DNA from: Microcoleus sp. FACHB-DQ6
Lineage (GTDB): Bacteria; Cyanobacteriota; Cyanobacteriia; Cyanobacteriales; Microcoleaceae
Reading direction: 5' to 3'
DNA: 37,593 bases
Assembly: GCA_014695175.1 (NCBI GenBank)
Contig: JACJNV010000103.1
Coordinates: forward strand, 1-37,593
The translations under genes and the position numbers were made by a program. Below are positions 3,412-17,468 of the stretch, one piece after another. The notes under the pieces were generated by a model. It was not told the origin of the DNA. It saw nothing but the letters and a program-made list of their open reading frames with translations, and ran no database searches. How positions within the stretch are numbered: the stretch's first letter is position 1; every line of letters begins with the position of its first letter.

Positions 3412-3440
3412 TTTACTCCTGCGAAAGGCCATGCTAACTT
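3412..3440 (+). promoter_or_regulatory. Candidate sigma70-type promoter for the 3447-3774 RNA
   Basis: TTTACT (3412-3417) and TAACTT (3435-3440) are spaced by 17 bp, with an overlapping TAATAAT just downstream. A start about 7 bases later would fall at the foot of the AGACACC hairpin. This is a motif-only prediction. Confidence 0.3.
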
Positions 3441-3446
3441 AATAAT

Positions 3447-3774
3447 AGACACCGGGACAGGAAGAGAAAGGAGGTCGCTATATTTAGAAAGAAAGTTCGA
3501 GGATATAGACATGGTGTCTCCGGTCTAGATTCCCAGGCGCAGCAGAAATTAACCGAACACAACTTGGAATAGTGGCGAACTGCCGATCGAGCAGTCAGGC
3601 CAAACCGCAGTCAAGTAAGACTTAGTTGTGGGTGCGGATTAAAAGTAAAGCTGCACAAGTTGTAAACCCTAGTAAGTAACAGTTCTCAACCGGAAACACA
3701 TCTAGTTTGTTAGAAAAAACAAAGCTCTCATATTATTGGGTCCGATCGCTGTCGATCGGGCCCTACGCTTTTTT
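3447..3774 (+). ncRNA. Candidate structured non-coding RNA or long leader, family not recognised
   Basis: No plausible ORF covers this stretch, but nested complementary segments do. AGACACC (3447-) pairs with GGTGTCT (~3514), enclosing GTC-CTATAT/ATATAG-GAC. A second domain (about 3530-3652) has GCAGC/GCTGC outside, CACAACT/AGTTGTG inside, and TGGC/GCCA plus ACTGC/GCAGT at the tip. ACAACTTG could alternatively pair with CAAGTTGT further downstream, so two folds are possible. The unit ends in a strong intrinsic terminator. It lacks the tag ORF and T-arm of tmRNA and the conserved RNase P motifs. The long bubbled hairpin is loosely 6S-like but I cannot assign it. Confidence 0.4.
3738..3774 (+). 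terminator. Strong intrinsic terminator
   Basis: GGGTCCGATCG (3738-3748) and CGATCGGGCCC (3753-3763) form an 11-bp stem with one G-U pair and a CTGT loop. TACGC and six T follow (3769-3774). It ends the candidate RNA and isolates the signalling operon from upstream transcription. Confidence 0.85.
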
Positions 3775-4303
3775 ATAGGGCGATCGCAGGAAGAGAGGGG
3801 AAGAGGGGCACAGAGGCGCAGAGTTCGACTGTATAAATGCTTTCTGCTCAAAGGCAACATCCCTCGGAGCCGATCGGCGAGCGATCGGTGCAGCTTTTGA
3901 GTTATATCTTATATATAATTAGACGTGGAGCGCGCGCCCCGCTTTTTGCCGGGGATCAAGCGCTATGGTATCAGGCACTGTCAAGATGCTATATCATTGA
4001 GGATGTCAGTCAAGACATTAAAACCTACCGCGCTGTGCTGTATAGCAGCAAAGTCTACGCTTCTCCGAGCTTGGTGCAAGGCAAGGATAGCAAACCGCCA
4101 TTTTTGGTGACAAGACCAGGCTCAAAAATTTGAATCTCAGGATATTTAGAGTCAAAACTCTAAAAAATCCCATCCCCGAAGCAGGGGTGAGAGTTCAAAA
4201 AATAAAATGCCGCCCCGTCAAAAAAGCTAGTGCCACCAACAAATTTCGTAAATCACTAGCACAGTTCTTAAACTCACAATCTCGGGAGATTCTAGGTACA
4301 AGC
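3775..4303 (+). other. Leader region of the signalling operon, no convincing gene
   Basis: It holds a HIP1 site (3780-3787), a copy of the AGAGGCGCAGAG-type dispersed repeat (3801-3823) and small hairpins (CCCCGAAGCAGGGG near 4172; CTAGTG/CACTAG near 4228-4260). A 98-codon frame at 3837-4133 is open. Its first 40 codons look non-coding, while the C-terminal half (from about GDQALWYQALSRCYIIED) reads more like protein, so a decayed gene or a small uORF cannot be excluded. Confidence 0.4.
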
Positions 4304-4912
4304 ATGGCCGAAATAACTAAAGAAGAAATGCGCGAACGGCTGGGAAATATCGACCAGATTCGCGATATAATTTTTGGAGCGCAGCTTAGAGAATACGATA
4401 ATCGCTTCGATAAAATAGATTCCGACTTGTCCATGATGCAGCAAGATATGCAAGCTCGCATCGAACAAGTGAAGACAGTTCTGTCTGCTGAAATGAAGGT
4501 GGCAGTTGATTCGTTAGAGAAGAAAGTTAAATCGCTCACCTCAAACACGCAAGAAGAAAGCGCCGACCTCCGTCAGCAAATCGATCGCGTTAACCGCAAA
4601 TTCTCCAGCAACATGGAAGCCCTGGACGAGGCGATCGACAATCAAACCAGTTCGCTTCGCGACGAACTCTCCAAAACCAGAGATCGACTATCTGAAGAAA
4701 GCCGCACTTTGAAAACACAAGTGTTTGAAGAGCTCGATCGCCGCTTTTCCATGCTCAGAGATGTTAAAGTTTCTAGAGACGACATGGCAGAAATTTTGTT
4801 TGAACTCGGCATGAGGCTCAAAGGAACAGAATTTGCGCCCGAACTTAAAAACGTTGCTGATAATAAGTTAAATAACGAATTTCTGTTGCCGGAGCGCCAC
4901 CATAACGGATAA
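4304..4912 (+). CDS. Coiled-coil protein, first gene of the GTPase/OmpA signalling operon
   Basis: A 202-residue, highly charged, almost wholly helical protein. From about residue 10 to 165 it shows continuous heptad-like patterning rich in Glu, Lys, Arg, Ser and Leu (DSDLSMMQQDMQARIEQVK, ESADLRQQIDRVNRKF). It ends in a short conserved-looking segment, SRDDMAEILFELGMRLKGTE. There is no signal peptide or membrane helix, so it is probably a cytoplasmic elongated scaffold. I chose the ATG at 4304 (MAEITKEEMRERL); the open frame extends upstream only through a TTG and non-coding-looking sequence. The stop is 6 bases before the OmpA-type gene, implying co-transcription. The family is not recognised; a partner or scaffold for the next two gene products is inferred from context only. 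Confidence 0.85.
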   Translation: MAEITKEEMRERLGNIDQIRDIIFGAQLREYDNRFDKIDSDLSMMQQDMQARIEQVKTVLSAEMKVAVDSLEKKVKSLTSNTQEESADLRQQIDRVNRKFSSNMEALDEAIDNQTSSLRDELSKTRDRLSEESRTLKTQVFEELDRRFSMLRDVKVSRDDMAEILFELGMRLKGTEFAPELKNVADNKLNNEFLLPERHHNG

Positions 4913-4918
4913 TAACGC

Positions 4919-7615
4919 ATGGCTTTACCGAAAGAAAATCCGGCTGACAAAAATGAGTTAGAGGGTTTTGTTTCTCAACCTGACGAGTCTGCTGCCGATG
5001 CAGCAGCCCAGCTAGAACCCTTGCTGAATCTGTTAGTCGATCTCAAAATTATTGCTGGTTCAAACCAGCAAAATGCAGAGCCCGAAGCTGACAGCAGCCA
5101 GGAAAAAAATCAAGCTGGGGCTCTCGGCGGGTTGATGGATTTGTTAGGTATTTCTGAGCAAGCGCCAGAGGAAGTTGCACCGAGTGTGCCAGTTTCGGGC
5201 GATCGCAAACCGGAGTCTGGCGATACGCCGGCTGTTGCAGACGAGTTAAAAAGTTTGCTGTTGGCTACTCACAAACTCAACACTTCACAACTGGAAAAAG
5301 ACTATTCCTCAGCTAAAACTATAGATGTTTCCGCGATCGCCCAGCCGGATTTGGAGGAATCAGAGCCTGTCGAAGAATTGTCTAACTTGACAATGAAAGA
5401 TTCTCTACAGGAAGTACAGGCTCAAAAATCCCACGGGTTCGATCGGCATTTAGAGGATGTTTCCGCTCCCGAAACCGAGTCAGAACCCTCGGTAATTCCC
5501 GAGAATCCCATAGTTTCCACAGTCTCAGAGCCACCAGAAACTGGATATTTAGATGCTGCGGTGGCTTCGGATCTAGAAATTCCCAACTTACGAGAACAGC
5601 CGACAGAAATATTAGGGCAAATTAAACAGGACTTAAATGAAGCCGACAGCGCGATGGAAAGGCTGCAAAATCTGATGTTTGGCGAGCAAATATCGGATAT
5701 CGAGCAAGTGAAAAGTCTGCTGGCAGAAAACGATTTGCCGGGGGTGCGCCACCTGATGGCAACAATCGACGATAAATTAGAAAAATTGGAGCACCAAATC
5801 TACGAACCCCAAGAGTTGATTGAGTTGATGCTGCCTTGGATCGCAGAAATTCTCAGCCGCAAAATTGCCGATTCCAGAGAAGAAGTTGTCAACGCGATCG
5901 TGCCCATTATTGACGAAGTGATTAGGGCAAAAACTCACGAAAACAAGTCGGCAATGAGTTCGGCAATAGCTGAGCTGCTTCCCGAGGCACTTGCTCAACA
6001 AATAGTGAATTCGCCAGCGGATATTGCTAACGCGATCGCCCCAGAAATCGGTCTGGCAATTAAAGAGCAAATTCGCCTCGACCAAGAGTCGATCGCCCAG
6101 GCGATCGCCCCGGAAATGGGCAAAGCGATTACAGCCCAAATAAAACTCGAGCGCAACTCTATGGTGGATGCGCTCTATCCCGTAATTGGCAGTACAATTT
6201 CCCGATACATGGCAGAAGCTATCAAAACAATTAATGAAAAAGTGTCCAATGCCATCAGCGTCGAAGGATTCCAAAGAAAAATTCGCTCCAAAGTACAAGG
6301 AGTCTCCGAAGCTGAATTAATCCTCCAAGAATCAGTACCCTTCACCGTCCAAGCAGCATTCTTAATTCACAAAGCATCAGGGTTAATAATTTCCGAAGTT
6401 CAAAACTCAGAAAGCTACCACTTAGAATCAGAAATGGTAGCAGGAATGCTCACAGCTATTCGCAGCTTTGTTAACGACTGTATCGTTCGACCGGGAGAAG
6501 TTTCCGAACTAAATCAAATTGAATACGGCGACTCCAAGATTATGTTAGAAGTAGCGGGATATTGCTACATGGCAGTCGTGATTAAAGGAGAACCGTCCGA
6601 CCCTTTCATCAATAAAATACGAGAAACCGTTAGTAATCTCATTCTTAATTACGGTAAAGTAATTCACGAGTTTAACGGCGATCCGGATACTATACCGGAC
6701 TCGCTGCACCCGTCGATAAAAACTTTATTCGACCCGCTGCCAACGGAAAAATCAACCAAACCCCCGATCGCCCTAGCGGGTATTGGTTTAGCCGCCCTAA
6801 GCTTAATCTTAGTACCTTGGGGAATTTATCAGTACCGCAGCAGTGTTGAGCGCCGCCTCGAAACAAATGCCATCGCAGCTTTAGCATCCACTCCCGAATT
6901 AGCAGTTTACCGCTTAGATGTTGCAGTGGATGGCAAAACTTTAAAGCTAACCGGTAAGTTGCCAAATCAACAATTGCGGGCACAAGCCGAAAAAATAGCC
7001 GCATCAACTGCACCGAAATTGCAATTAGATAATAGAATTATAGCTGTAGATGTCCCCCCAGATCCAGTTTTGACGGCGGCTGAGGTGCAGCGGATTACCG
7101 CCGTTTTGAACCTGAGAGAGGGCGTTTCTATTTCTACGCGGTATGGCGATCGCAAACTTACAGTAGAGGGCCGAGTTAGAGACGGTGCGGAGGCACAGAA
7201 AATAGCTCAGTCCCTGAAGCAAATTCCCGGTGTTCAGTCGGTCATAAGTACCGTTAAATTAGAGCCGCTGAAAATTACAACCCGCATCTACTTCGAGCAA
7301 GGAACGACCAAATTAGACTCAACAGATGAAGAAATCATCGCCCGTGTCAAAAATTTCATGGATCAATATCCTCAAAAACAGATTAAGATAATTGGGCACA
7401 GCGATCGAAGCGGAGAACTTGCTACAAATCAACAGTTGTCGCTCAGGCGTGCCGCAGCAGTGCGAGATGCTTTAGTGCGGCAAGGTGCTAACCCGAAGCG
7501 CCTCCAAACGGTTGGCATCCCCAATCCTCCTGCGGACGTGGAACCCAATCAACCGCGAATTTTAAGCAGGTGCGTGCTATTTGAACCAATAACTAAGACC
7601 ATCAACAGTAAATAA
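4919..7615 (+). CDS. Membrane-anchored OmpA-family protein with helical repeats and a roadblock/longin-like region
   Basis: 898 residues. Domains as read: residues 1-230, acidic and disordered; 230-297, helical; 298-435, six 23-residue repeats; about 462-600, a compact alpha/beta segment (QAAFLIHKASGLIISEV, then MVAGMLTAIRSFVNDCI, then YCYMAVVIKGEP) whose pattern resembles roadblock/LC7 or longin folds; about 617-638, one transmembrane helix (ALAGIGLAALSLILVPWGIY); two BON-like alpha/beta units (645-782); and a C-terminal OmpA peptidoglycan-binding domain (about 786-893; FEQGTTKLDS, KIIGHSDRSGE, LSLRRAAAVRDAL). The topology should put the N-terminal 600 residues in the cytoplasm and OmpA in the periplasm. 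The GTPase gene follows after 2 bases. The OmpA call is secure; the roadblock-like call is pattern inference. Confidence 0.9.
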   Translation: MALPKENPADKNELEGFVSQPDESAADAAAQLEPLLNLLVDLKIIAGSNQQNAEPEADSSQEKNQAGALGGLMDLLGISEQAPEEVAPSVPVSGDRKPESGDTPAVADELKSLLLATHKLNTSQLEKDYSSAKTIDVSAIAQPDLEESEPVEELSNLTMKDSLQEVQAQKSHGFDRHLEDVSAPETESEPSVIPENPIVSTVSEPPETGYLDAAVASDLEIPNLREQPTEILGQIKQDLNEADSAMERLQNLMFGEQISDIEQVKSLLAENDLPGVRHLMATIDDKLEKLEHQIYEPQELIELMLPWIAEILSRKIADSREEVVNAIVPIIDEVIRAKTHENKSAMSSAIAELLPEALAQQIVNSPADIANAIAPEIGLAIKEQIRLDQESIAQAIAPEMGKAITAQIKLERNSMVDALYPVIGSTISRYMAEAIKTINEKVSNAISVEGFQRKIRSKVQGVSEAELILQESVPFTVQAAFLIHKASGLIISEVQNSESYHLESEMVAGMLTAIRSFVNDCIVRPGEVSELNQIEYGDSKIMLEVAGYCYMAVVIKGEPSDPFINKIRETVSNLILNYGKVIHEFNGDPDTIPDSLHPSIKTLFDPLPTEKSTKPPIALAGIGLAALSLILVPWGIYQYRSSVERRLETNAIAALASTPELAVYRLDVAVDGKTLKLTGKLPNQQLRAQAEKIAASTAPKLQLDNRIIAVDVPPDPVLTAAEVQRITAVLNLREGVSISTRYGDRKLTVEGRVRDGAEAQKIAQSLKQIPGVQSVISTVKLEPLKITTRIYFEQGTTKLDSTDEEIIARVKNFMDQYPQKQIKIIGHSDRSGELATNQQLSLRRAAAVRDALVRQGANPKRLQTVGIPNPPADVEPNQPRILSRCVLFEPITKTINSK
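5810..6223 (+). repeat. Six tandem 69-bp (23-residue) repeats inside the OmpA-type gene
   Basis: Residues 298-435 divide without gaps into six 23-residue units: QELIELMLP.., EEVVNAIVP.., SAMSSAIAE.., ADIANAIAP.., ESIAQAIAP.. and NSMVDALYP... Position 9 is Pro in five of six, positions 6-8 are small or hydrophobic, and a second hydrophobic helix follows. This suggests a regular helical-hairpin solenoid. Units 3 and 4 are the most alike. Confidence 0.85.
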
Positions 7616-7617
7616 TT

Positions 7618-8154
7618 ATGTCAGTTACTATATCTAAAAAAATGTGCATGATTGGCGATTTTGGCGTGGGCAAAACCAGCCTGATCCGCCGTTTTGTCGA
7701 TCAGAAATTCAGCGACGAGTACCTGTCCACGGTGGGAGTGAAAATTTCTCGCAAAAACATCATCTTAGGAAACACAAAACAGCGGGAAAACGTGACTGTA
7801 CAGTTGCTAATTTGGGACTTAGAAGGGCATACAAAATTCAAAGGAATAGCACCGACTTACTTGCAGGGAGCTAGCGGCGTTTTAATCGTTGCCGATGTCA
7901 CCCGCTCCGAAACAGTTGAGCGAATCTCCGAACACATTCAGCTTTTTTCTTCAGTAAATCCTAAAGGTTCAATTATCGTCGCTTTGAACAAAGTAGACTT
8001 GATTGACGAGGAAAAATTGCCGCTGCTAGTGGAAATATCCCATTCGATATGTCAAGACAAAGTAATAGCAGTTTACACGACATCTGCTAAAACAGGCAAA
8101 GACGTTGACGAAATTTTCTATAAACTAGCTTACACAATGATAGAACCAGTATGA
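7618..8154 (+). CDS. Ras/Rab-like small GTPase
   Basis: 178 residues, the bare size of a Ras-superfamily G domain. All five motifs are present: G1 GDFGVGKTS (13-21), switch I Thr38 in STVGV, G3 WDLEGH (66-71), G4 NKVD (124-127) and G5 TSAK (155-158). By alignment to Ras, the Gly12 position is Phe15 and the catalytic Gln61 position is His71. Both changes would be expected to slow intrinsic hydrolysis and make a GAP important. No lipidation Cys occurs at the C-terminus (ends MIEPV), so membrane attachment would have to come from a partner. It starts 2 bases after the OmpA-type gene and overlaps the downstream kinase start by 4 bases. It resembles eukaryotic Rab more than classical MglA in its P-loop. 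Confidence 0.95.
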   Translation: MSVTISKKMCMIGDFGVGKTSLIRRFVDQKFSDEYLSTVGVKISRKNIILGNTKQRENVTVQLLIWDLEGHTKFKGIAPTYLQGASGVLIVADVTRSETVERISEHIQLFSSVNPKGSIIVALNKVDLIDEEKLPLLVEISHSICQDKVIAVYTTSAKTGKDVDEIFYKLAYTMIEPV

Positions 8155-9707
8155 ACCCCATTTTAAAAAAGTTATTGGGCCCGCAACAAATAGAGTATTT
8201 TGTAGTAAATCACCATTTCATAATTCAGGAAACCTCCGCCCAAGTGCAGCATTATGCCGATACTCCGGGCGACGCGATACCCGGTGCAGATGCTCGCATA
8301 AGTTTTCCCGAACTGATTGGCATTGAAAATATCCTCATGTCTATCATTATGGGACGGCTACCGGGTTTTGAAGTCAAAGGTATCGCTCGGTTTGCGGACC
8401 AAAACCGCCCTTTATACTTTGATATGTTGGCTATCAAACATGAAGACGAACAAGAAGATGTGCCAAATAAATTGCTAATTTTGATTGAAGATACCACCGA
8501 AAAGATGGTGATGAAGCAATCGTTGATTCAGAGCGCGAATGAAGCTAATCTTTTGGTGAGCGCCTTAGCGGCTTCTAAAGATTATATAGATAAAGTTATT
8601 CGTTCGATGGGCGATGCTTTGTTGGTGACAACAACCTTAGGAACTATCAAAACAATCAATCAATCGGCTCAATGGTTATTTGGGTATAGCGAAGCAGAAT
8701 TAATCGGTCGCCCCTTATCTTTAATCTTACTCGAAGAAACCTTAATTTGCCAAGCTCGCCACAGCTATATTTTGTCTCAGAAAGAGCTGCGTAGAGAACT
8801 ACAAATAGTCTGCACTACTAAAGCAGGAGAAGAAATTTGGGTAGAATTTTCCTGTTCGCCAATTCAGACAGAATTAGAGGGACTTTACGATTTCATTTAT
8901 ATAGGCAGGGACATCACAGAACGCAAACAACAAGAAATAGAAATTCGCGGCTCTTTGGCAAAAGAGCAAGAACTCAGACAGGTAAAATCTCGTTTTTTCT
9001 CAATGATTGCTCACGAATTCGGCAATCCTCTAAGTACAGTATTATTTGCTACTAAAATCCTCCAAGACTACGGCGACGAAATCACCCACGCGGAAAAACA
9101 AAAATACCTGCAACACGTTAAATCAGCATCTCAACAAATGGCTCAGCTATTAGATGACGTGCGGTTGCTTAGCAGCGCCGAAGCCGGAAAACTCGAATTC
9201 TATCCCGCACCCGTTGACTTAAAAAAATTTTGCAGCGACTTAGTAGAATCAATTAAGATTAGTTATGGAAAAAATCATACAATTAACTTTATTTGTCAAG
9301 AATTAGTCACGCCCGCGACCAAAAATGATAACGAGTCGCAGGAAACGCAAAACTTGCCCGCACTAGATGCAAAATTGCTGCGGCACATCTTGACAAATTT
9401 GCTGTCAAATGCTGTAAAATATTCGCCGATCGACAGCAATATTTATTTTGAATTAAATTGTCAGAATAATGAAGAAGCTACATTTAAAATTAAAGACGCA
9501 GGCATTGGCATTCCTCTAGAAGACCAAGAACAACTGTTTGAATCTTATTATCGAGCCAAAAATGTCGGAAAAATACCCGGTACAGGACTGGGTTTATCCA
9601 TAGTCAAGCAGTGTGTAGACTTGCACGGAGGTCAAATCGAATTTTCCAGCGAGACAGGGTTAGGCACTACCTTTATAGTCAAAATTCCATTTTACCAACA
9701 CAGATAA
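8151..9707 (+). CDS. PAS-domain sensor histidine kinase
   Basis: 518 residues, soluble, no transmembrane segment. Residues 1-125 form a PAS-like N-terminal domain shared with the downstream cyclase. A PAS domain follows (about 140-265; ends DFIYIGRDITERKQ). The HisKA H-box is SMIAHEFGNPLS with His288; the usual R-T of HEFRTPL is G-N here. The HATPase has its N box (HILTNLLSNAVKYSP), G1 (KDAGIGIP) and G2 (GTGLGLSIV). It should autophosphorylate and pass phosphate to a receiver; the only receiver in the operon is in the last gene. The ATG overlaps the GTPase stop as ATGA, so translation is probably coupled, which ties this sensor closely to the GTPase. Confidence 0.95.
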   Translation: MNPILKKLLGPQQIEYFVVNHHFIIQETSAQVQHYADTPGDAIPGADARISFPELIGIENILMSIIMGRLPGFEVKGIARFADQNRPLYFDMLAIKHEDEQEDVPNKLLILIEDTTEKMVMKQSLIQSANEANLLVSALAASKDYIDKVIRSMGDALLVTTTLGTIKTINQSAQWLFGYSEAELIGRPLSLILLEETLICQARHSYILSQKELRRELQIVCTTKAGEEIWVEFSCSPIQTELEGLYDFIYIGRDITERKQQEIEIRGSLAKEQELRQVKSRFFSMIAHEFGNPLSTVLFATKILQDYGDEITHAEKQKYLQHVKSASQQMAQLLDDVRLLSSAEAGKLEFYPAPVDLKKFCSDLVESIKISYGKNHTINFICQELVTPATKNDNESQETQNLPALDAKLLRHILTNLLSNAVKYSPIDSNIYFELNCQNNEEATFKIKDAGIGIPLEDQEQLFESYYRAKNVGKIPGTGLGLSIVKQCVDLHGGQIEFSSETGLGTTFIVKIPFYQHR

Positions 9708-9764
9708 ATAGATTAATTTTAGATAGTGCGCTACAGAGGGCGCATTCACTACTAAAAATTCAAC

Positions 9765-12590
9765 ATGGAAACCCTGTTAAAAAAGCTGTTAGTCCCCCCC
9801 CACTTGGAGTACCTAGCACTGGATAAAGACTTTTTAATCCAAGAAACCTCTATCAAAGTGCAGCGGTTTGGCGACTGTCCCGAGGAAGTAGTCGCCGGCA
9901 ACGATGTCCGCATTCCCTTTCCCGAATTAGTAGGAACTGAAGAAATTTTAATCGATATTTTTGAAAGACGTTTGCCACACTTTGAATTAAAAGCAATCAC
10001 GAGGCTATTAGAAAATGGATCGCGGCTTTATTTTGATATGTATATCGTCGAGTTTACCAAGGACGATAATTATCAGAGATTAATTATATTTTTTCAAGAC
10101 GTAACCGACAGGATGGCTTTAGAACAAACTCTAGTGCAAGCTACTAATGAAATGGATATTTTATTGAGTACCTTAGCGGCTACTAATAATTATGTTGAAA
10201 AAATTATTACTTCAATGGCCGAAGTTTTGTTGGTAACAACAGCCTCGGGAAAGATTAAAAAAGTCAATCAAGCGGCTCAAGATTTGTTTGGTTACAGCGA
10301 ATCAGAATTAGTAGGCCAGCAAATAGACGCTCTTGCGGCTTTTGGCTCCTCTTTGCAGGCAGTCAGCCAAGAGGAGCCTCAACAATTGCAAACTAACGCC
10401 GAAGTAATTTGCACGGCAAAAACCGGAAAAAAGCTAACAGTTTCGTTTTCCTGTACGGCGATTTCGACTGACATTAAAGGTGTTTCTGGCTCTGGGCCCG
10501 GCGTTCAAGATTTCGTGTACATCGGCCGCGATGTCACAGATAGACAGCGCGCCCGCAAGCGACAAATAACTCAGTACGTCACCACTCGCATCCTGTCGGC
10601 ATCCGAAACAATAAAAAAAGCTATAGCAGCAATTCTCCCCGTAATTTGCGACAGCTTGGGATGGGATACCGCCGAACTTTGGATGCCAGAAGCTGGGGAA
10701 AAACTGCTGTCAGAAACTAAGAGAATAACTGCGGTTTCCGACCCCAATTTGCTTCGCTGCGTCGCCAGTTGGACAAAACGCTCAGTTTCTATCCCCAAAT
10801 TTGCCGAATTTACCGAACAAATGACTTGTGCGTTTGGCGAAGGATTACCCGGTTTCGTTTGGGCCAGCGGTTCCTCTCAGTGGATTGCCGATGTCACAAA
10901 AAGCGACAGTTGTATGCGCCGCGAAATCGCTGCTGAAGAAGGACTGCACGGAGCTTTGGGTTTTCCAATTTTGGGCGACTACGACCCTGAAAATTCTGCA
11001 AAGTCTGTGTTAGGGGTGATGATTTTTTTCAGCCGCGAAGTGCAGTGTTTTGATGAAGAATTGCTCCAGATAATGGCAACCATCGGCAGCCAACTCGGTC
11101 AATTTATCAAGCGCAAACAAGCGGAAATAGCTTTGCGGGAAAGCGAAGAACAACTCCGAGACTTATTTGAAAATGCTACTGACTTAATTCAAAGTATTGG
11201 AGCAGACGGTCATTTTTTGTATGTCAATCGGGCTTGGCGGGAAACTCTGGGCTACACCGAAGCAGAAATTGCTCAAATGACTGTTTTTGATATCATTCAT
11301 CCGAACAGTTCCCCAGAGTCTCTGGATATATTGTATCAAGCTATTACCCAAAAAAACCTAAATAAAAGTACATTGTATCCACCCTCTATTGAAATAATAT
11401 TTATCACTAAAGAACATAAAAAAATTTTGCTGGAAGGCAGCATAAGCTGTAAATTTGCGGCAGGTTCGCTAGTAGCGATTCGCGCTATTTTGCGAGACAT
11501 TACTGCTCGAAAAATGGCCGAAGACGCCCTAGCAAAATCTGTATCCCTGCTGCAAGCAACTTTTGATTCTACTGCTGACGGTATTTTAGCTACTGACAGG
11601 AGCGGAAAAATTGTCACTTTCAATCGAGAATTTGTGGAAATGTGGGGCATACCTAATGAAGTGATGGCACTGCGAGACGACGCCACAACGATCGCCTTTG
11701 TCCTGAACCAACTCAAAGACCCCCAAGCATTTCAAGACAGAATACAATCGCTTGACGAGCAGCCAGAAGCCGAAAGTTACGACTTGTTGGAATTTCAAGA
11801 CGGCAGATTTTTTGAACGCTATTCGCAACCGCAGCGGCTGGGAGATACAATTATCGGCCGAGTCTGGAGTTACCACGACATTACGGAACGCAAGCAAGCA
11901 GAATATGCCCTGCGAGAAGAGCAAGAAAAATCAGAAAAGCTGCTGTTAAATATCTTGCCCAAGGCAATAGCAGAACGCCTCAAGCAAAACGAAACTACTA
12001 TTGCCGAATACTTTCCGGAAGTGACTGTTTTGTTTGCAGACATTGTGGGGTTTACTGCTTTGTCTGCCGTCATGAATCCGATCGAACTTGTGGATCTCCT
12101 AAATAAGATTTTCTCAGGATTCGACCTTTTGTGCGAACGGCACGGTTTAGAGAAAATTAAGACCATCGGCGACGCATACATGGCAGTAGGAGGACTGCCT
12201 GAACCCAGGGAAGACCACGCAGATGCGATCGCCAAAATTGCCCTAGATATGCAAGCAGAAATAGCCAGATTTAATGCTAACAATAATAAATATTTTAGTA
12301 TCCGCATCGGCATTCACAGCGGCCCGGTTGTTGCCGGAGTAATCGGTATAAAGAAGTTTATTTACGATCTATGGGGCGACACGGTAAATATTGCTTCCCG
12401 CATGGAATCTCAGGGTTTGCCTTGGCGGATTCAAGTGAGCGAAACTACTTATAAATTGTTGGAAAATAAATATTTGTTTCAGGAGCGAGGAATGATTGAA
12501 GTTAAAGGCAAAGGGGTAATGAAAACTTATATTCTCATTGGTCGAAAATCAGGCAGCTCATCAGTCATCAGTCATCTGGCTGATGACTAA
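9765..12590 (+). CDS. Multi-sensor class III adenylate cyclase (PAS-GAF-PAS-PAS-CHD)
   Basis: 941 residues, soluble. Order: an N-terminal PAS-like domain (1-125) paralogous to the upstream kinase, PAS (135-265), GAF (275-455), two PAS (460-585, 590-715), a signalling helix, and a catalytic domain (725-925). The catalytic domain has both metal Asp residues (D759 in FADIVGF, D803 in TIGDAYM). The adenine-specifying Lys797 (EKIKTIGD) and Asp868 (YDLWGD) are present, as are Asn and Arg in TVNIASRM, so ATP to cAMP is predicted and GTP is unlikely. It likely works as a homodimer. It lies 57 bases after the kinase. Its last residues (SSVISHLADD) come from a TCATCAG-type repeat that overlaps a terminator-like hairpin at the stop. 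Confidence 0.96.
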   Translation: METLLKKLLVPPHLEYLALDKDFLIQETSIKVQRFGDCPEEVVAGNDVRIPFPELVGTEEILIDIFERRLPHFELKAITRLLENGSRLYFDMYIVEFTKDDNYQRLIIFFQDVTDRMALEQTLVQATNEMDILLSTLAATNNYVEKIITSMAEVLLVTTASGKIKKVNQAAQDLFGYSESELVGQQIDALAAFGSSLQAVSQEEPQQLQTNAEVICTAKTGKKLTVSFSCTAISTDIKGVSGSGPGVQDFVYIGRDVTDRQRARKRQITQYVTTRILSASETIKKAIAAILPVICDSLGWDTAELWMPEAGEKLLSETKRITAVSDPNLLRCVASWTKRSVSIPKFAEFTEQMTCAFGEGLPGFVWASGSSQWIADVTKSDSCMRREIAAEEGLHGALGFPILGDYDPENSAKSVLGVMIFFSREVQCFDEELLQIMATIGSQLGQFIKRKQAEIALRESEEQLRDLFENATDLIQSIGADGHFLYVNRAWRETLGYTEAEIAQMTVFDIIHPNSSPESLDILYQAITQKNLNKSTLYPPSIEIIFITKEHKKILLEGSISCKFAAGSLVAIRAILRDITARKMAEDALAKSVSLLQATFDSTADGILATDRSGKIVTFNREFVEMWGIPNEVMALRDDATTIAFVLNQLKDPQAFQDRIQSLDEQPEAESYDLLEFQDGRFFERYSQPQRLGDTIIGRVWSYHDITERKQAEYALREEQEKSEKLLLNILPKAIAERLKQNETTIAEYFPEVTVLFADIVGFTALSAVMNPIELVDLLNKIFSGFDLLCERHGLEKIKTIGDAYMAVGGLPEPREDHADAIAKIALDMQAEIARFNANNNKYFSIRIGIHSGPVVAGVIGIKKFIYDLWGDTVNIASRMESQGLPWRIQVSETTYKLLENKYLFQERGMIEVKGKGVMKTYILIGRKSGSSSVISHLADD

Positions 12591-12622
12591 AAGTATTGCT
12601 AAAGTTAATTAGCAATACTTTT
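12589..12622 (+). terminator. Intrinsic terminator-like hairpin between cyclase and kinase genes
   Basis: AAAAGTATTGCTAA (12589-12602) pairs perfectly over 14 bp with the run from 12609 to 12622, around a 6-base loop. The 3' arm ends in five T. The hairpin starts at the cyclase stop codon and the next ORF begins 13 bases later, so it may partly separate the first five genes from the last two. The A/T-rich flanks would make it usable in both directions. Confidence 0.65.
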
Positions 12623-12634
12623 TGACCAAGACTA

Positions 12635-15600
12635 ATGGAACTTGCTAATTTGTCGGCAAATTTACGATCGCCCGACGAAGCTGTCGATCGCCACCCTGCC
12701 ACGGTTGGGCCCTCGACTTCGCTCGCAGAGGCGCTCGCCCTGATGCGTCAGACGAGCAACCCTTGCCCACTGCCTAATTCACCTGCATTTCCCGACTCAA
12801 ACGAAACTGTAAAAGCATCTCTTAGTTGCGTCTTAGTTGTCGATGAAAATCAGCTAGTCGGACTGCTAAGCTCGGAAGATGTGCTCAACTTAGCTGCCTC
12901 CGAATACGGATGGCAAGGCATGAAAGTTGCCGACGCAATGACGCGGAATTTAATTGTCTTACAAGAATCAGAATTTACAGATATTACTAGCGCATTCAAG
13001 CTATTTTGTCAATACTCGATCGATTGCTTGCCAATTGTAGATGAACGGGGTCAGCTCGTAGGTTTAGTCAGCGAAAAAACGATTCGGCCAGCAATGTATA
13101 GCTGGATGGAGGCACGGCACCAAGAAGCTGCAAAACTTCAGCAACAATCTGAACTGTTAAACGGTAATTGTGAACTAGAAACACGAGTCAGCGATCGCAA
13201 AAATGCCGAAAATCACCTGCTGCAGAGCCAGATACGCTACCAGGCGATTGTGGAAGACCAAACCGAACTGATTTGCCGCTACCTCCCCGACGGTAAAATC
13301 ACCTTTGTCAATCAAGCTTACTGCCACTATTTCGGCGTGCAACTAGAAGACTTGCTCGGCAACAGCTTCATGTCGCTGCTCCCAGAAGCAGACCGAAAAA
13401 TTTTTCAAGAGCAATATACTTCTGTGTGTCCCGAGAAGCCTGTTTTTACCTGCGAACACCGAGTAATTTTGCCGAGCGGGGAAATTCGCTGGCAGCAGTG
13501 GATCGATCGGGCGATATTCGACGAGAGCGGACAAATCGTCGAGTATCAAGCAGCAGGCCGGGATGTCACGGATCGCAAACAAGCAGAAATCGCTTTGCAG
13601 CAGCTCAATGCAGAGTTAGAACTGCGAGTGCAGCAGCGGACACAATGGTACGAAATGGCAGTATCGGCCGGCAAAGTGGGGGTTTGGGACTGGAATTTGG
13701 AAACCGACGAAATCTACATTGCTCCGTCTTTGAAAGCTTTGTTGGGCTATCAGGACGCAGAGATTCCCAACCGCATGGAAAATTGGGCATCTCACGTTCA
13801 TCCCGACGATCGAGTTGCAGTCGCCGAAGCAGTAAATGCTTATCTAGAGGGTTTGACAGAAATTTATGAAGTAGAATACCGGATGCTGCGTAAAGACGGC
13901 AGCATTTGCTGGATACTTGCCCGCGGCAGCGCGATCCGATCGGCTTCTGGCAAGGCCTTCCGCCTGACTGGCACTGACACCGACATTACCGATCGCAAAT
14001 TGACCGAAGAAAAACTTCAAAACTCCGAAGCCGAACTGGTGGCGCTGTTTAACGCCATGACGGATATCGTGCTGGTTTTCGACGCAAGCGGCCGCTACCT
14101 CAAAATCGCCCCCACGGCTCCCGAACTGCTGTACAAACCGGCTCCTGAAGTGCTGGGCAAAACCCTCGCGGAAATCTTCCCAGAAGCGGAAGCTAATTTT
14201 GCCCTAGCCCACATTCGCCAAACATTGGCATCTGGGCAAACGCATAGAGTTGAATACAGCATGGAAATTGGCTGCAAGTTATTTTGGTTTGATGCCAGTA
14301 TTTCGCCCCTGGATCTCGATCGGGTGATGTGGGTCGCCCGAGACATTACCGCTCGCAAACACGCAGAAGCTGCACTGCAAAAGAGCGAGGAAAAGTTTCG
14401 CAACTTATTTGACGATGCTCCGATCGCGCTTGGTTTGGCAAGCGTGCGCGACTACCGCACGATCAAAGTGAATGAAGCTCACCGCCAGATGTTGGGCTAC
14501 AGCGATTCGGAGTTGGCTACCATGACTTTTACTGAACTCACGCATCCAGAAGATTTACAAGCAGATGTGGAGCAAGTCAAGCAGTTGGTCGAGGGCAATA
14601 TTTCTCGCTTCCAAAGGGAAAAACGCTTGATTAAGAAGAATGGCGAGCTGATGTGGGCAAACTTGACGCTGACGCTGATCCGCGATCGCGAGGGCATTCC
14701 TCTCTACAGCATGGGGGCGATCGAAGATATCAGTTATCGTAAGCGAGCAGAAATGGAATTTCAGCAGTTAAAAGAACGCCTGCAATTTTTACTGGGTTCT
14801 AATCCGGCGGTAATTTTTACAGCCGCACCGACGGGAGACTTTTGTACTACTTACATCAGCGACAACGTTCAGACAATCGTTGGCTACGACCCCCAAGAAT
14901 TGTTAGCAGATTGTAAATTTTGGTCTAGCAGGATTCACCCGGAAGATCGGCAACAATTTCTAGTAAATTTGTCGGATTTGTCCGCAGAAAAAAATTGCAT
15001 TTGCGAGTACCGTTTTCTACACCAAGACGGAATTTACCGTTGGCTAAGGACGGAACTAAAACTATTGGTTGACAGCAGGGGCATTCCGATCGAAATTATT
15101 GGTTATGCCGCTGATATCAGCAATTCTAAATACGCCGAACTCGCTAGGGGGCAGCAGTTCGAGCAAGAACGGCTTGTGGAGGCGATCGCCCGTCGTGTCC
15201 GCCAGTCTTTGCAATTAGAGGAAATTCTCAACACCACGGTTGCGGAACTCCAGCAAGTATTATTAGCCGATCGAGTTTTGGTTTATCAACTTTTACCCAA
15301 AAGCGGCGGACGAGTCATTGCTGAAGCCGTGGCAGAAGGATGCAGCCCACTCCTGGATAGATATTTTGGCGAAGAGGTTTTTCCGCCTGAAAGTTATCAG
15401 CTTTATTTGCAAGGGCGAATTTCTGCGATCTCCGAACTAGATGACCCCTGCATTACACCTTGTGTGGTGGAGTTTATGAAACAAATTCAAGTTAGGGCAA
15501 AGTTAGTAGTGCCGATTATTCAGCACAGCCAGCTTTGGGGATTGCTGATCGCCCACCAATGCGATCGCTCTCGTGATTGGCAAGAATCGGAAATGAATTT

Positions 15601-16345
15601 ATTTCAGCAGTTGGTGAATCAATTGGCGATCGCCATTCAGCAATCTCTACTTTACCAGCAACTGCAAGCTGAACTGAGCGACCGCAAACAAGCGGAAGCA
15701 AATTTGAAAAACTCCCTCAGAGAAAAAGAAATTTTGCTCAAAGAAATTCACCACCGCGTCAAAAACAACCTCTGCGTAGTTGCCAGTCTGTTAGAATTGC
15801 AATCGAACACAGTTGCCGACCCGCAAGTAAGCAAAATGTTTGAAGAAAGTCAGAATCGCCTTTATTCTATGGCTCTGATTCACGAAAAACTGTACCGCTC
15901 GACTAACCTAGCGCAAATTAATTTTGGCGAATATCTCGAAGATTTGGTAAGTAACTTGTTTCACTCTTACAATATTAGCAACAACCGAATTCAGTTGCAG
16001 GTATTAGCTGACCCAATTTCCCTAAATCTTGAAACCGCTACTCCCTGCGGTTTAATTGCCAATGAATTGGTTTCAAATACCCTGAAACACGCTTTTCCTG
16101 ATGGCACAACTGGTACAGTTAGTGTAGAATGCTATCAAACGGGTGATAAAGAAATCAACCTCTTAGTTAAGGACAACGGCATTGGCTTTCCTCCCAACTT
16201 AGATTTTCGGAAAACTCAATCGATGGGGTTTCAAGTTGTCTGCACTTTAACCGAGCAGTTAGAAGGAACTATCGAAATCTCCAGAGAATTGGGTACATCG
16301 TTTCACTTAAAGTTTAACGAGTTAAACTACTTTCAAAGATTGTAA
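12635..16345 (+). CDS. CBS-multiPAS-GAF sensor kinase of the HisKA_2 type
   Basis: 1236 residues, soluble. A CBS pair (about 20-152; GLLSSEDVLNLAA, VADAMTRN, LVGLVSEKTI) could sense adenine nucleotides. Five PAS/PAC units follow (about 199-320, 340-462, 463-582, 583-705, 706-835). The GAF (about 845-1015) resembles cyanobacteriochrome/phytochrome-type GAFs. It has a Cys at the chromophore position (C943 in ITPCVVEF), but the neighbouring His is Val. The kinase core has the HisKA_2 box KEIHHRVKNN (H1039/H1040), ANELVSNTLKHAFP and DNGIGFP. This kinase class usually signals to a separate receiver, and one is encoded 4 bases downstream. Bilin binding is possible but unproven. Confidence 0.95.
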   Translation: MELANLSANLRSPDEAVDRHPATVGPSTSLAEALALMRQTSNPCPLPNSPAFPDSNETVKASLSCVLVVDENQLVGLLSSEDVLNLAASEYGWQGMKVADAMTRNLIVLQESEFTDITSAFKLFCQYSIDCLPIVDERGQLVGLVSEKTIRPAMYSWMEARHQEAAKLQQQSELLNGNCELETRVSDRKNAENHLLQSQIRYQAIVEDQTELICRYLPDGKITFVNQAYCHYFGVQLEDLLGNSFMSLLPEADRKIFQEQYTSVCPEKPVFTCEHRVILPSGEIRWQQWIDRAIFDESGQIVEYQAAGRDVTDRKQAEIALQQLNAELELRVQQRTQWYEMAVSAGKVGVWDWNLETDEIYIAPSLKALLGYQDAEIPNRMENWASHVHPDDRVAVAEAVNAYLEGLTEIYEVEYRMLRKDGSICWILARGSAIRSASGKAFRLTGTDTDITDRKLTEEKLQNSEAELVALFNAMTDIVLVFDASGRYLKIAPTAPELLYKPAPEVLGKTLAEIFPEAEANFALAHIRQTLASGQTHRVEYSMEIGCKLFWFDASISPLDLDRVMWVARDITARKHAEAALQKSEEKFRNLFDDAPIALGLASVRDYRTIKVNEAHRQMLGYSDSELATMTFTELTHPEDLQADVEQVKQLVEGNISRFQREKRLIKKNGELMWANLTLTLIRDREGIPLYSMGAIEDISYRKRAEMEFQQLKERLQFLLGSNPAVIFTAAPTGDFCTTYISDNVQTIVGYDPQELLADCKFWSSRIHPEDRQQFLVNLSDLSAEKNCICEYRFLHQDGIYRWLRTELKLLVDSRGIPIEIIGYAADISNSKYAELARGQQFEQERLVEAIARRVRQSLQLEEILNTTVAELQQVLLADRVLVYQLLPKSGGRVIAEAVAEGCSPLLDRYFGEEVFPPESYQLYLQGRISAISELDDPCITPCVVEFMKQIQVRAKLVVPIIQHSQLWGLLIAHQCDRSRDWQESEMNLFQQLVNQLAIAIQQSLLYQQLQAELSDRKQAEANLKNSLREKEILLKEIHHRVKNNLCVVASLLELQSNTVADPQVSKMFEESQNRLYSMALIHEKLYRSTNLAQINFGEYLEDLVSNLFHSYNISNNRIQLQVLADPISLNLETATPCGLIANELVSNTLKHAFPDGTTGTVSVECYQTGDKEINLLVKDNGIGFPPNLDFRKTQSMGFQVVCTLTEQLEGTIEISRELGTSFHLKFNELNYFQRL

Positions 16346-16349
16346 AAAT

Positions 16350-17468
16350 ATGAGTTTTGCCGAAAAACCAATTAATATTTTGATTGTCGAAGACGAACTG
16401 TTAATTGCTAAAAATTTATCCCCAAAATTAGAAAAATTGGGATATCAAATCGCCGATATCGTTTCTTCAGGAGCGGATGCCATCCAGCGCGCCCACGAAC
16501 TAAGACCCGATTTAATTTTAATGGATATAGTTATCAAAGGCGACATTGACGGCATAGAAACAGCAGCAATAATTAATCAAGAAATAGATATACCAATTAT
16601 CTATACAACTGCGTATGCCGACGACGCAACTTTGCAGCGAGCCGAAAATACTGGTTCTTACGGCTACCTGCTCAAACCTTTTAAAGAAAGAGAAATGCAC
16701 GCCACTATCAAGATAGCACTGAGCAAACATCAAGAAGCAGTTAGCCTGAAAAAATTAATGGCGTTAGCAGCAGAAAAAAGCGAAAATAGATCGCGCTTTA
16801 TTTCAATGGCTTACCACGATTTAAACACTCCTTTAACTACCATACAGTTATCGGCTGAAATGTTAGAAGATAGCGACTTGCAGAGAAACCCCGGAACTAG
16901 CAATAAAAATGTTGACCGGATTAAAAGAGCCGTCAGTAATATGAGTGGGCTGCTGGAAGATATTTTAATGCTGAGCAAAGCAGAATCCGGGAAAATTTCC
17001 TTAAATTTAAATCCGATCAATGCGACGGATTTATGCAATTCTATTTTAGAAGAACTGCAACCTATCGTCACCGACAAACACCTAATACATTTCCGCAGTC
17101 ATACAAATCCGCTGCACGCCAATCTCGATGCAAAACTACTGCACCACCTTCTGACTAATTTGCTTTCAAACGCTATTAAATATTCTCCAAACGGTGGCAA
17201 GGTAAGTTTAGACTTAAGCTGCGAAAACCAACAAATAATTTTGTGCGTTCGAGATGAGGGAATTGGGATGACACCGGAATATCAAGGAAAACTATTTCAG
17301 CAGTTTGAACGGGGTGCTAATGTAGGCAAGATTAAAGGCTCGGGTTTGGGACTCTGCATTGTCAAACACATAGTTGACCTGCACGGCGGTACAATAAGTG
17401 TGGAAAGTGCGATCGGCAAAGGTACTACATTTATTGTCGCGCTGCCTTTTTTAGTTAGTAGTCAGTAG
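16350..17468 (+). CDS. Receiver-histidine kinase (response regulator fused to HisKA/HATPase)
   Basis: 372 residues. An N-terminal receiver (about 8-128) has the acidic pair in VEDE, the phospho-acceptor D59 (LILMDIVIKG), Thr in YTTAYA and Lys in LLKPFK. A linker leads to HisKA (SMAYHDLNTPLT, H156). The HATPase has LLTNLLSNAIKYSP, RDEGIGMTP and GSGLGLCIV. Receiver-first architecture suggests that phosphorylation of D59, probably by the kinase 4 bases upstream, gates this kinase's own output. The final output regulator is not in the window. The last residues (LVSSQ) and the stop codon are written by the TAGTCA-type heptamer repeat. Confidence 0.96.
   Translation: MSFAEKPINILIVEDELLIAKNLSPKLEKLGYQIADIVSSGADAIQRAHELRPDLILMDIVIKGDIDGIETAAIINQEIDIPIIYTTAYADDATLQRAENTGSYGYLLKPFKEREMHATIKIALSKHQEAVSLKKLMALAAEKSENRSRFISMAYHDLNTPLTTIQLSAEMLEDSDLQRNPGTSNKNVDRIKRAVSNMSGLLEDILMLSKAESGKISLNLNPINATDLCNSILEELQPIVTDKHLIHFRSHTNPLHANLDAKLLHHLLTNLLSNAIKYSPNGGKVSLDLSCENQQIILCVRDEGIGMTPEYQGKLFQQFERGANVGKIKGSGLGLCIVKHIVDLHGGTISVESAIGKGTTFIVALPFLVSSQ

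Follow-up and report, generated by a model that had tools for sequence, protein, structure and literature searches.

In the passages of Wuichet and Sogaard-Andersen (Genome Biol Evol 2014, PMC4316618) on the Group 1 Rup proteins, the genomic neighborhood of this group consists of a small GTPase without a glutamine in the G3 motif, a coiled-coil protein, a membrane protein of the OmpA type that contains a conserved domain, and an output enzyme, 'typically' a kinase or a GGDEF/EAL protein, that carries an N-terminal region with an invariant glutamine. The same passages describe the eukaryotic Rab, Ran, Ras and Rho proteins as very similar to Group 1 Rup, and the Rup proteins themselves as lacking, as of 2014, experimental characterization, a partner or a function. 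No partner or function reported after 2014 was found in the open-licence PMC literature, and its titles and the beginnings of its abstracts yielded no description of such a system beyond PMC4316618.

Two other bacterial systems combine Ras-like GTPases with partners from the longin/roadblock superfamily. In the actinobacterial conservons (CvnA-D), a histidine kinase and a small GTPase are accompanied by such a partner, as in the locus analyzed here, but the conservon partner is a roadblock protein whereas the one described below is predicted to be longin-like. As outlined in the conservon passages of PMC4316618 and PMC13343842, conservons have four core proteins; an MglA-type GTPase and, as a protein of its own, an MglB-type one are among them, and neither an OmpA-type protein nor a cyclase is. 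The MglA/MglB polarity module of Myxococcus also pairs a bacterial Ras-like GTPase with a partner of this superfamily.

Composition of the locus

The window, i.e. the entire stretch of DNA that was analyzed, comprises 37593 nucleotides (bases 1-37593 of contig C6) of a 6.72 Mb genome assembled in 402 contigs (98% complete), and its nearest relatives by the GTPase sequence, among the best 80 of 97 relatives that were kept, belong to Microcoleus. When the open frames were re-derived, the seven plus-strand genes of the initial annotation were recovered with exactly the same junctions of 6, 2, -4, 57, 44 and 4 bases, and the domain content ascribed to them was borne out by Pfam. Gene 1 (4304..4912), the first gene of the Rup set, encodes a coiled-coil protein of 202 amino acids, with weak coiled-coil-type Pfam matches below the cut-offs and no hydrophobic segment found in a hydropathy scan. 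Its frame is also open in the 5' direction as far as a TTG at 4130; the relatives, compared from the ATG at 4304 onwards, align along the full 202 residues. Gene 2 (4919..7615) encodes an OmpA-type membrane protein of 898 amino acids (Pfam OmpA, 61.9 bits; BON, 37.8 bits), and gene 3 (7618..8154) a small GTPase of the Group 1 Rup type (178 amino acids; Pfam Ras, 102.4 bits). The start of gene 4 (8151..9707), which encodes a PAS histidine kinase of 518 amino acids (Pfam PAS, HisKA and HATPase), overlaps the stop of the GTPase gene by 4 bases, and gene 5 (9765..12590) encodes a class III adenylate cyclase with PAS and GAF domains (941 amino acids; Pfam Guanylate_cyc, 224.9 bits). The kinase and the cyclase are treated here as outputs 1 and 2. 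The remaining genes encode, according to Pfam, a CBS/PAS/GAF HisKA_2 kinase of 1236 amino acids (gene 6; 12635..16345) and a receiver-histidine kinase of 372 amino acids with receiver, HisKA and HATPase domains (gene 7; 16350..17468), and are considered accessory for the reasons given below.

Promoter-like sites number 29 in the window, compared with 22.1 (sd 4.7) in shuffled sequences, and terminator-like sites 16, compared with 19.2 (sd 3.8); a search of the whole window against Rfam gave no matches at gathering scores. The stretch 3440-3770, ahead of gene 1, contains no long gene, ends in a strong hairpin followed by a T run (3738-3763), and is possibly an unlisted structured RNA.

The architecture of the gene 2 protein fits the wall anchoring that had been proposed for it. 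A single transmembrane helix (residues about 614-637; 6758..6829), the sole segment of this protein with a hydropathy value >1.6, is preceded by the conserved domain (residues about 476-608; 6344..6742), which is probably cytosolic, and followed by a BON domain (6854..7012 for the better of two stretches detected by Pfam) and an OmpA domain of the peptidoglycan-binding type (7289..7516), recognized by Pfam and by sequence similarity to OmpA-like domains in the PDB. For the conserved domain, a longin fold is predicted. The model is of moderate confidence (55.6 as a whole, about 69 for the domain) and superposes on longin domains over the entire domain; the structure matches include TRAPP, Sec22b, the SRP receptor, Fuzzy-Inturned and one Lokiarchaeal longin, with phytochrome chains as rival folds in 2 of the 50 Foldseek matches listed. 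No sequence-profile link between this region and longins was detected in Pfam or PDB at E up to 10, and none of the 7 matches up to E 10 in the PDB profile search is a longin. The output N-terminal domain discussed below, treated alike, gave lists of PAS-type matches as opposed to the longins obtained for the OmpA-type region. The predicted fold of the partner and the presence of a Rab-like GTPase next door are reminiscent of the eukaryotic longin proteins and the Lokiarchaeal longin; unlike in these proteins, the domain is linked to a transmembrane segment and an OmpA domain, and its contact with the GTPase is putative.

Further upstream in the gene 2 protein, residues about 300-440 (window approximately 5816-6240) appear to form repeated short helices with AIAPEIGxAI-like units. 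This part is matched several times by a second OmpA-type protein with a longin-type region (1203 amino acids; 9352-12963 of locus L095 on contig C288 of genome G000), which adjoins a pdxA gene; contig C288 stops shortly past the paralogue and gave no Ras-family match. In G195, which belongs to the same genus, such a paralogue is the only OmpA-type protein of this kind, and the Rup GTPase has no match.

The GTPase

In the alignment of 80 GTPase sequences (the one from the window and 79 frames from the scanned loci), the nucleotide-binding motifs are fully conserved: Gly13, Gly18, Lys19, Thr20 and the G3 aspartate, Asp67, are present in all 80 sequences, and so are Asn124, Lys125 and Asp127 as well as Thr155, Ser156 and Ala157. 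By our own reading of the alignment against Ras numbering, the place of Ras Gly12 is occupied by phenylalanine in 80 of the 80 sequences, and that of Ras Gln61 by His71 in 77, with one serine, one glutamine and one asparagine in the others. A phenylalanine in the place of Gly12 should hinder the ordinary Ras arginine finger.

These features are those of Group 1 Rup. With 178 amino acids, the GTPase lies within the 150-240 range of that group; it has Ras-like G1-G5 motifs including the G3 aspartate, and histidine replaces the glutamine of G3. Its neighbors are a cytoplasmic coiled-coil protein, recognized by weak Pfam matches, conserved place and the lack of a hydrophobic segment, a protein in which a conserved domain, a transmembrane helix and an OmpA domain are combined, and an output enzyme with a glutamine-containing N-terminal region, in line with the likeness to the set outlined in the Group 1 passages of PMC4316618. 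Genes 1-4 thus are the Group 1 Rup set already in print there, and the statement in the initial annotation that no system with such a set had been described does not hold for them. What departs from those passages is the presence of two tandem outputs, one of which is an adenylate cyclase, where kinases or GGDEF/EAL proteins are typical; the predictions that the conserved domain is longin-like and that the N-terminal region of the outputs has a PAS fold go beyond them.

An identity as MglA, which the initial annotation named as an example of bacterial Ras-like GTPases, was rejected. The G3 aspartate is retained throughout the alignment, in a departure from MglA, and the roadblock/LC7 family (PF03259) has 0 matches in the genome at E 0.001, in a search whose control was positive in 3 of 14 genomes; the partner, unlike that in MglA/MglB, resides in the membrane and carries an OmpA domain. 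The locus also differs from conservons in that no MglB-type roadblock protein accompanies the kinase and the GTPase, given that no member of the roadblock family was found among genes 1-7 by Pfam or in the genome with PF03259. Among the best 80 of the 97 relatives, the sole non-cyanobacterial ones are two Asgard archaeal GTPases (L085 and L086; 38% and 35% identity).

Gene order and the private N-terminal domain

Conservation of the neighborhood was assessed in 78 cyanobacterial loci (L007-L084), i.e. the best 80 of the 97 relatives minus the two from Asgard, a sample that leans to close kin. On the upstream side of the GTPase, 70 loci extend for 3.5 kb or more, and 63 of them show the order coiled coil, OmpA-type protein, GTPase. 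Downstream, 70 loci extend for 2 kb or more, and 60 of these contain a gene that encodes the N-terminal domain of the outputs (hereinafter ND); this gene starts >300 bases past the GTPase frame in 11 of the 60 and at 6.4 kb in one. Such an arrangement is far beyond chance, and because the neighbors are kept in these proportions, the objection of non-conservation in relatives, raised along with the initial annotation, fails. The upstream count was failed by seven loci (L037, L049, L050, L052, L066, L070 and L073). In L066, none of the three genes is actually missing, and L049 does contain the OmpA-type gene, but their stop-to-stop frames overlap the GTPase frame beyond the limit; in L037, both upstream genes are present and another GTPase frame, on the opposite strand, intervenes; in L070 and L073, the coiled coil is present and an OmpA-type match is absent. 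Two GTPases are encoded in L060, with a kinase-type gene after one and a cyclase-type gene after the other, each with an ND. In a Hydrocoleum locus (L067, 6583-7355), a partial GTPase match (residues 3-88) directly precedes a near full-length one, and in Nostoc sp. UHCC 0926 (L154), a set of coiled coil, OmpA-type protein, GTPase and hybrid kinase resides on the 1-Mb plasmid pn1.

Genes 6 and 7 behave differently and were rejected as part of the core. A BLASTP comparison showed no ND in either, and matches to gene 7 and to gene 6, the latter complete or starting at about residue 183 or 455, were found beside the cyclase in no loci other than those within L007-L029, L041 and L053, i.e. in Microcoleus, Tychonema and close kin, with some contigs ending earlier.

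The ND is common to the kinase (8151..8600) and the cyclase (9765..10214): residues 1-150 of the two proteins are 43% identical (BLASTP, E 4e-46). A Pfam search of the ND gave no significant match, and genome-wide it has just two matches, the kinase and the cyclase of this locus. In the alignment of 63 ND sequences (A1), Tyr16, Pro53, Glu54, Gly57, Glu59, Tyr89 and Thr116 are invariant, and Gln123 (8517-8519 in the kinase) is present in 62; Gln26 of the kinase, considered as a candidate for the conserved glutamine, is present in only 26 and was discarded. We infer that Gln123 is the invariant glutamine mentioned in the Group 1 passages of PMC4316618. The AlphaFold2 model of the ND (pLDDT 82.5) predicts a PAS topology followed by a helix (116-149) that bears Gln123, and the model superposes on PAS domains. 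The structure matches listed by Foldseek and VIA-align are entries of the PAS, LOV and photoactive yellow protein type.

In 98 of 98 open frames, the ND is N-terminal, ahead of varied outputs. By the product of the first ND gene past the GTPase, 66 loci divide into 40 with a histidine kinase, 9 with a hybrid kinase, 9 with an adenylate cyclase, 4 with a GGDEF protein (as assigned by Pfam) and 4 with a protein of unassigned type; histidine kinase-type and cyclase-type ND genes are both present in 24 loci. Two compilations, one with 113 entries and one with 120 of 1702 entries listed, were used for domain composition only; the former includes a cyclase domain in P0199 and P0223 and a GGDEF domain in P0233. 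The occurrence of one head on four kinds of catalytic tails argues for an input role of the ND. A further, unlinked ND frame of about 705-720 amino acids occurs in three genomes (G039:C43, G099:C1:4530671 and G195:C10:8576) and is unmatched in the genome of the window.

The ND is nearly confined to GTPase-bearing genomes. Among 292 cyanobacterial genomes, the GTPase (E up to 1e-20) was found in 34, the cytosolic region of the OmpA-type protein in 34, the ND in 38, and all three in 32. The ND is present in 33 of the 34 GTPase-bearing genomes (the exception is G024) and absent in 253 of the 258 GTPase-free ones, the five others containing strong (G195 and G197) or weak (G013, G051 and G233) matches; Fisher's p for this co-occurrence is 4e-37, a value that ignores shared ancestry. 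In four genomes (G002, G066, G091 and G174), the ND lies 294-804 kb away from the GTPase, so that linkage alone does not make the co-occurrence pattern. For the ten loci without a downstream ND gene, nine genomes were searched: the ND is found elsewhere in six and absent in three, namely the GTPase-bearing genomes of two Moorena (L080 and L083) and one Cyanosarcina (L081). On the plus strand past the GTPase, which was the strand examined in Moorena and Cyanosarcina, the next gene in L083 (10814-12877) is, by Pfam, of the Ser/Thr-kinase type without an ND, and a frame in another Moorena locus (L079, 7993-10035) begins with nearly the same letters; possibly, this gene is a different output that occupies the same slot. 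L080 has an RRXRR/HNH gene ahead of a protein-kinase gene, and in L081 the next frames are NeuB-type and dehydrogenase-type genes.

A tblastn search of plasmids with the GTPase retrieved 4 records, the fourth of them from Rhizobium sp. CC1099. On pWSM1497 of Mesorhizobium sp. WSM1497, a hypothetical protein, an OmpA family protein, a Rab family GTPase and an adenylate/guanylate cyclase are encoded in this order. The cyanobacterial profiles, compared with the frames of three loci only, matched the coiled coil with E 2.5e-18 in WSM1497 and 5.6e-18 in Rhizobium sp. 007, the cytosolic region of the OmpA-type protein with E about 1e-40 in both, and the GTPase with E 2e-38 and 7e-37, respectively. 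The ND profile matched the rhizobial cyclases weakly, with E of 1e-3 and 5e-4 for the whole protein and about 0.05 and 0.04 for the best single stretch in the search of the three loci, and in this weak match the places of Gln123 and Gln127 align to glutamines. From these gene sets, it follows that the combination of the GTPase with an adenylate cyclase recurs in a second phylum.

A putative GTPase circuit and its alternatives

We propose, with a probability of about 0.6, that the locus encodes a GTPase system of the Group 1 Rup type whose two outputs are arranged in tandem, with a wall-anchored longin platform that serves the GTPase and an ND that reads its state. The OmpA-type protein would cross the inner membrane once and bind the cell wall through its periplasmic OmpA domain, and its longin-fold domain, probably dimeric, would dock the Rab-like GTPase at the membrane on the cytosolic side and set its nucleotide state. 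In one state, the GTPase would engage the ND of the PAS kinase and that of the adenylate cyclase, and the exit helix of the ND, with the near-invariant Gln123, would relay the signal to the catalytic parts, so that the state of the wall or envelope would be converted into phosphorylation and cAMP. The physical binding, the GEF, GAP and effector roles, the signal sensed and the cell process served are putative elements of this scheme. A more ambitious formulation, a complete bacterial Rab-like circuit in which a wall-anchored longin platform is combined with a PAS-fold effector placed before kinases, adenylate cyclases or diguanylate cyclases, is tentative, and we consider it possible but rather doubtful.

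The direction of the signal could be the opposite. The ND might be a GAP domain that provides the catalytic glutamine in trans, with the kinase and the cyclase acting mainly upstream, to switch the GTPase off, and the GTPase as the output; Wuichet and Sogaard-Andersen speculated on such a glutamine in trans, and their conservon passages posit the GTPase as the output (PMC4316618). Besides this precedent, the histidine in the place of Ras Gln61 in nearly all of the GTPases and the near invariance of Gln123 in the ND speak for this reading. The ND, however, heads kinases, hybrid kinases, cyclases and GGDEF proteins, which is the usual sign of an input domain, the model places Gln123 in the long helix that leaves the domain, as in a signaling helix, and GTPases exist in genomes without an ND match, so that we regard this alternative as unlikely. 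The GAP and effector readings are compatible inasmuch as an effector can also be a GAP. The idea of the initial annotation that two sensors and a relay set the state of the GTPase is not supported: genes 6 and 7 lack the ND and are outside the core, and the kinase and cyclase seem to read the GTPase and not merely to regulate it.

It is less probable still that the neighborhood is an operon conserved for some other reason, the OmpA-type protein being a structural anchor and the kinase and cyclase answering their own signals without touching the GTPase. Both enzymes do bear ordinary PAS or GAF domains, and the Rup passages of PMC4316618 report no experimentally shown interaction by 2014, but in the absence of a functional contact one would hardly expect the two enzymes to share a private domain that, even where it is unlinked, occurs almost exclusively in genomes with the GTPase. 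Least credible of all is a single phosphorelay-GTPase system of seven genes with genes 6 and 7 as integral parts: the junctions of 44 and 4 bases and the synteny in Microcoleus and close kin speak for such a system, but, in addition to the absence of the ND and the restricted, partly contig-limited adjacency to the cyclase, only a C-terminal remnant of gene 6 persists in L018, L021 and L024, and L023 has neither gene.

Reading the locus, then, as a Group 1 Rup system in which the ND responds to the GTPase, the features that are new, as far as the literature was searched, are the predicted longin partner, the PAS-fold head that extends to an adenylate cyclase, the near confinement of this head to genomes with the GTPase, and the rhizobial parallel. 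If the proposed circuit is real, bacteria would possess an equivalent of the GTPase-longin pairing of eukaryotes, one linked to the state of the envelope, and the ND would be a GTPase-gated input module for second-messenger enzymes. With candidates named for the longin-type partner and for the dedicated effector domain, the system becomes testable with a few purified proteins. It would link bacterial Ras-like switches to cAMP and may bear on the age of the GTPase-longin pairing.
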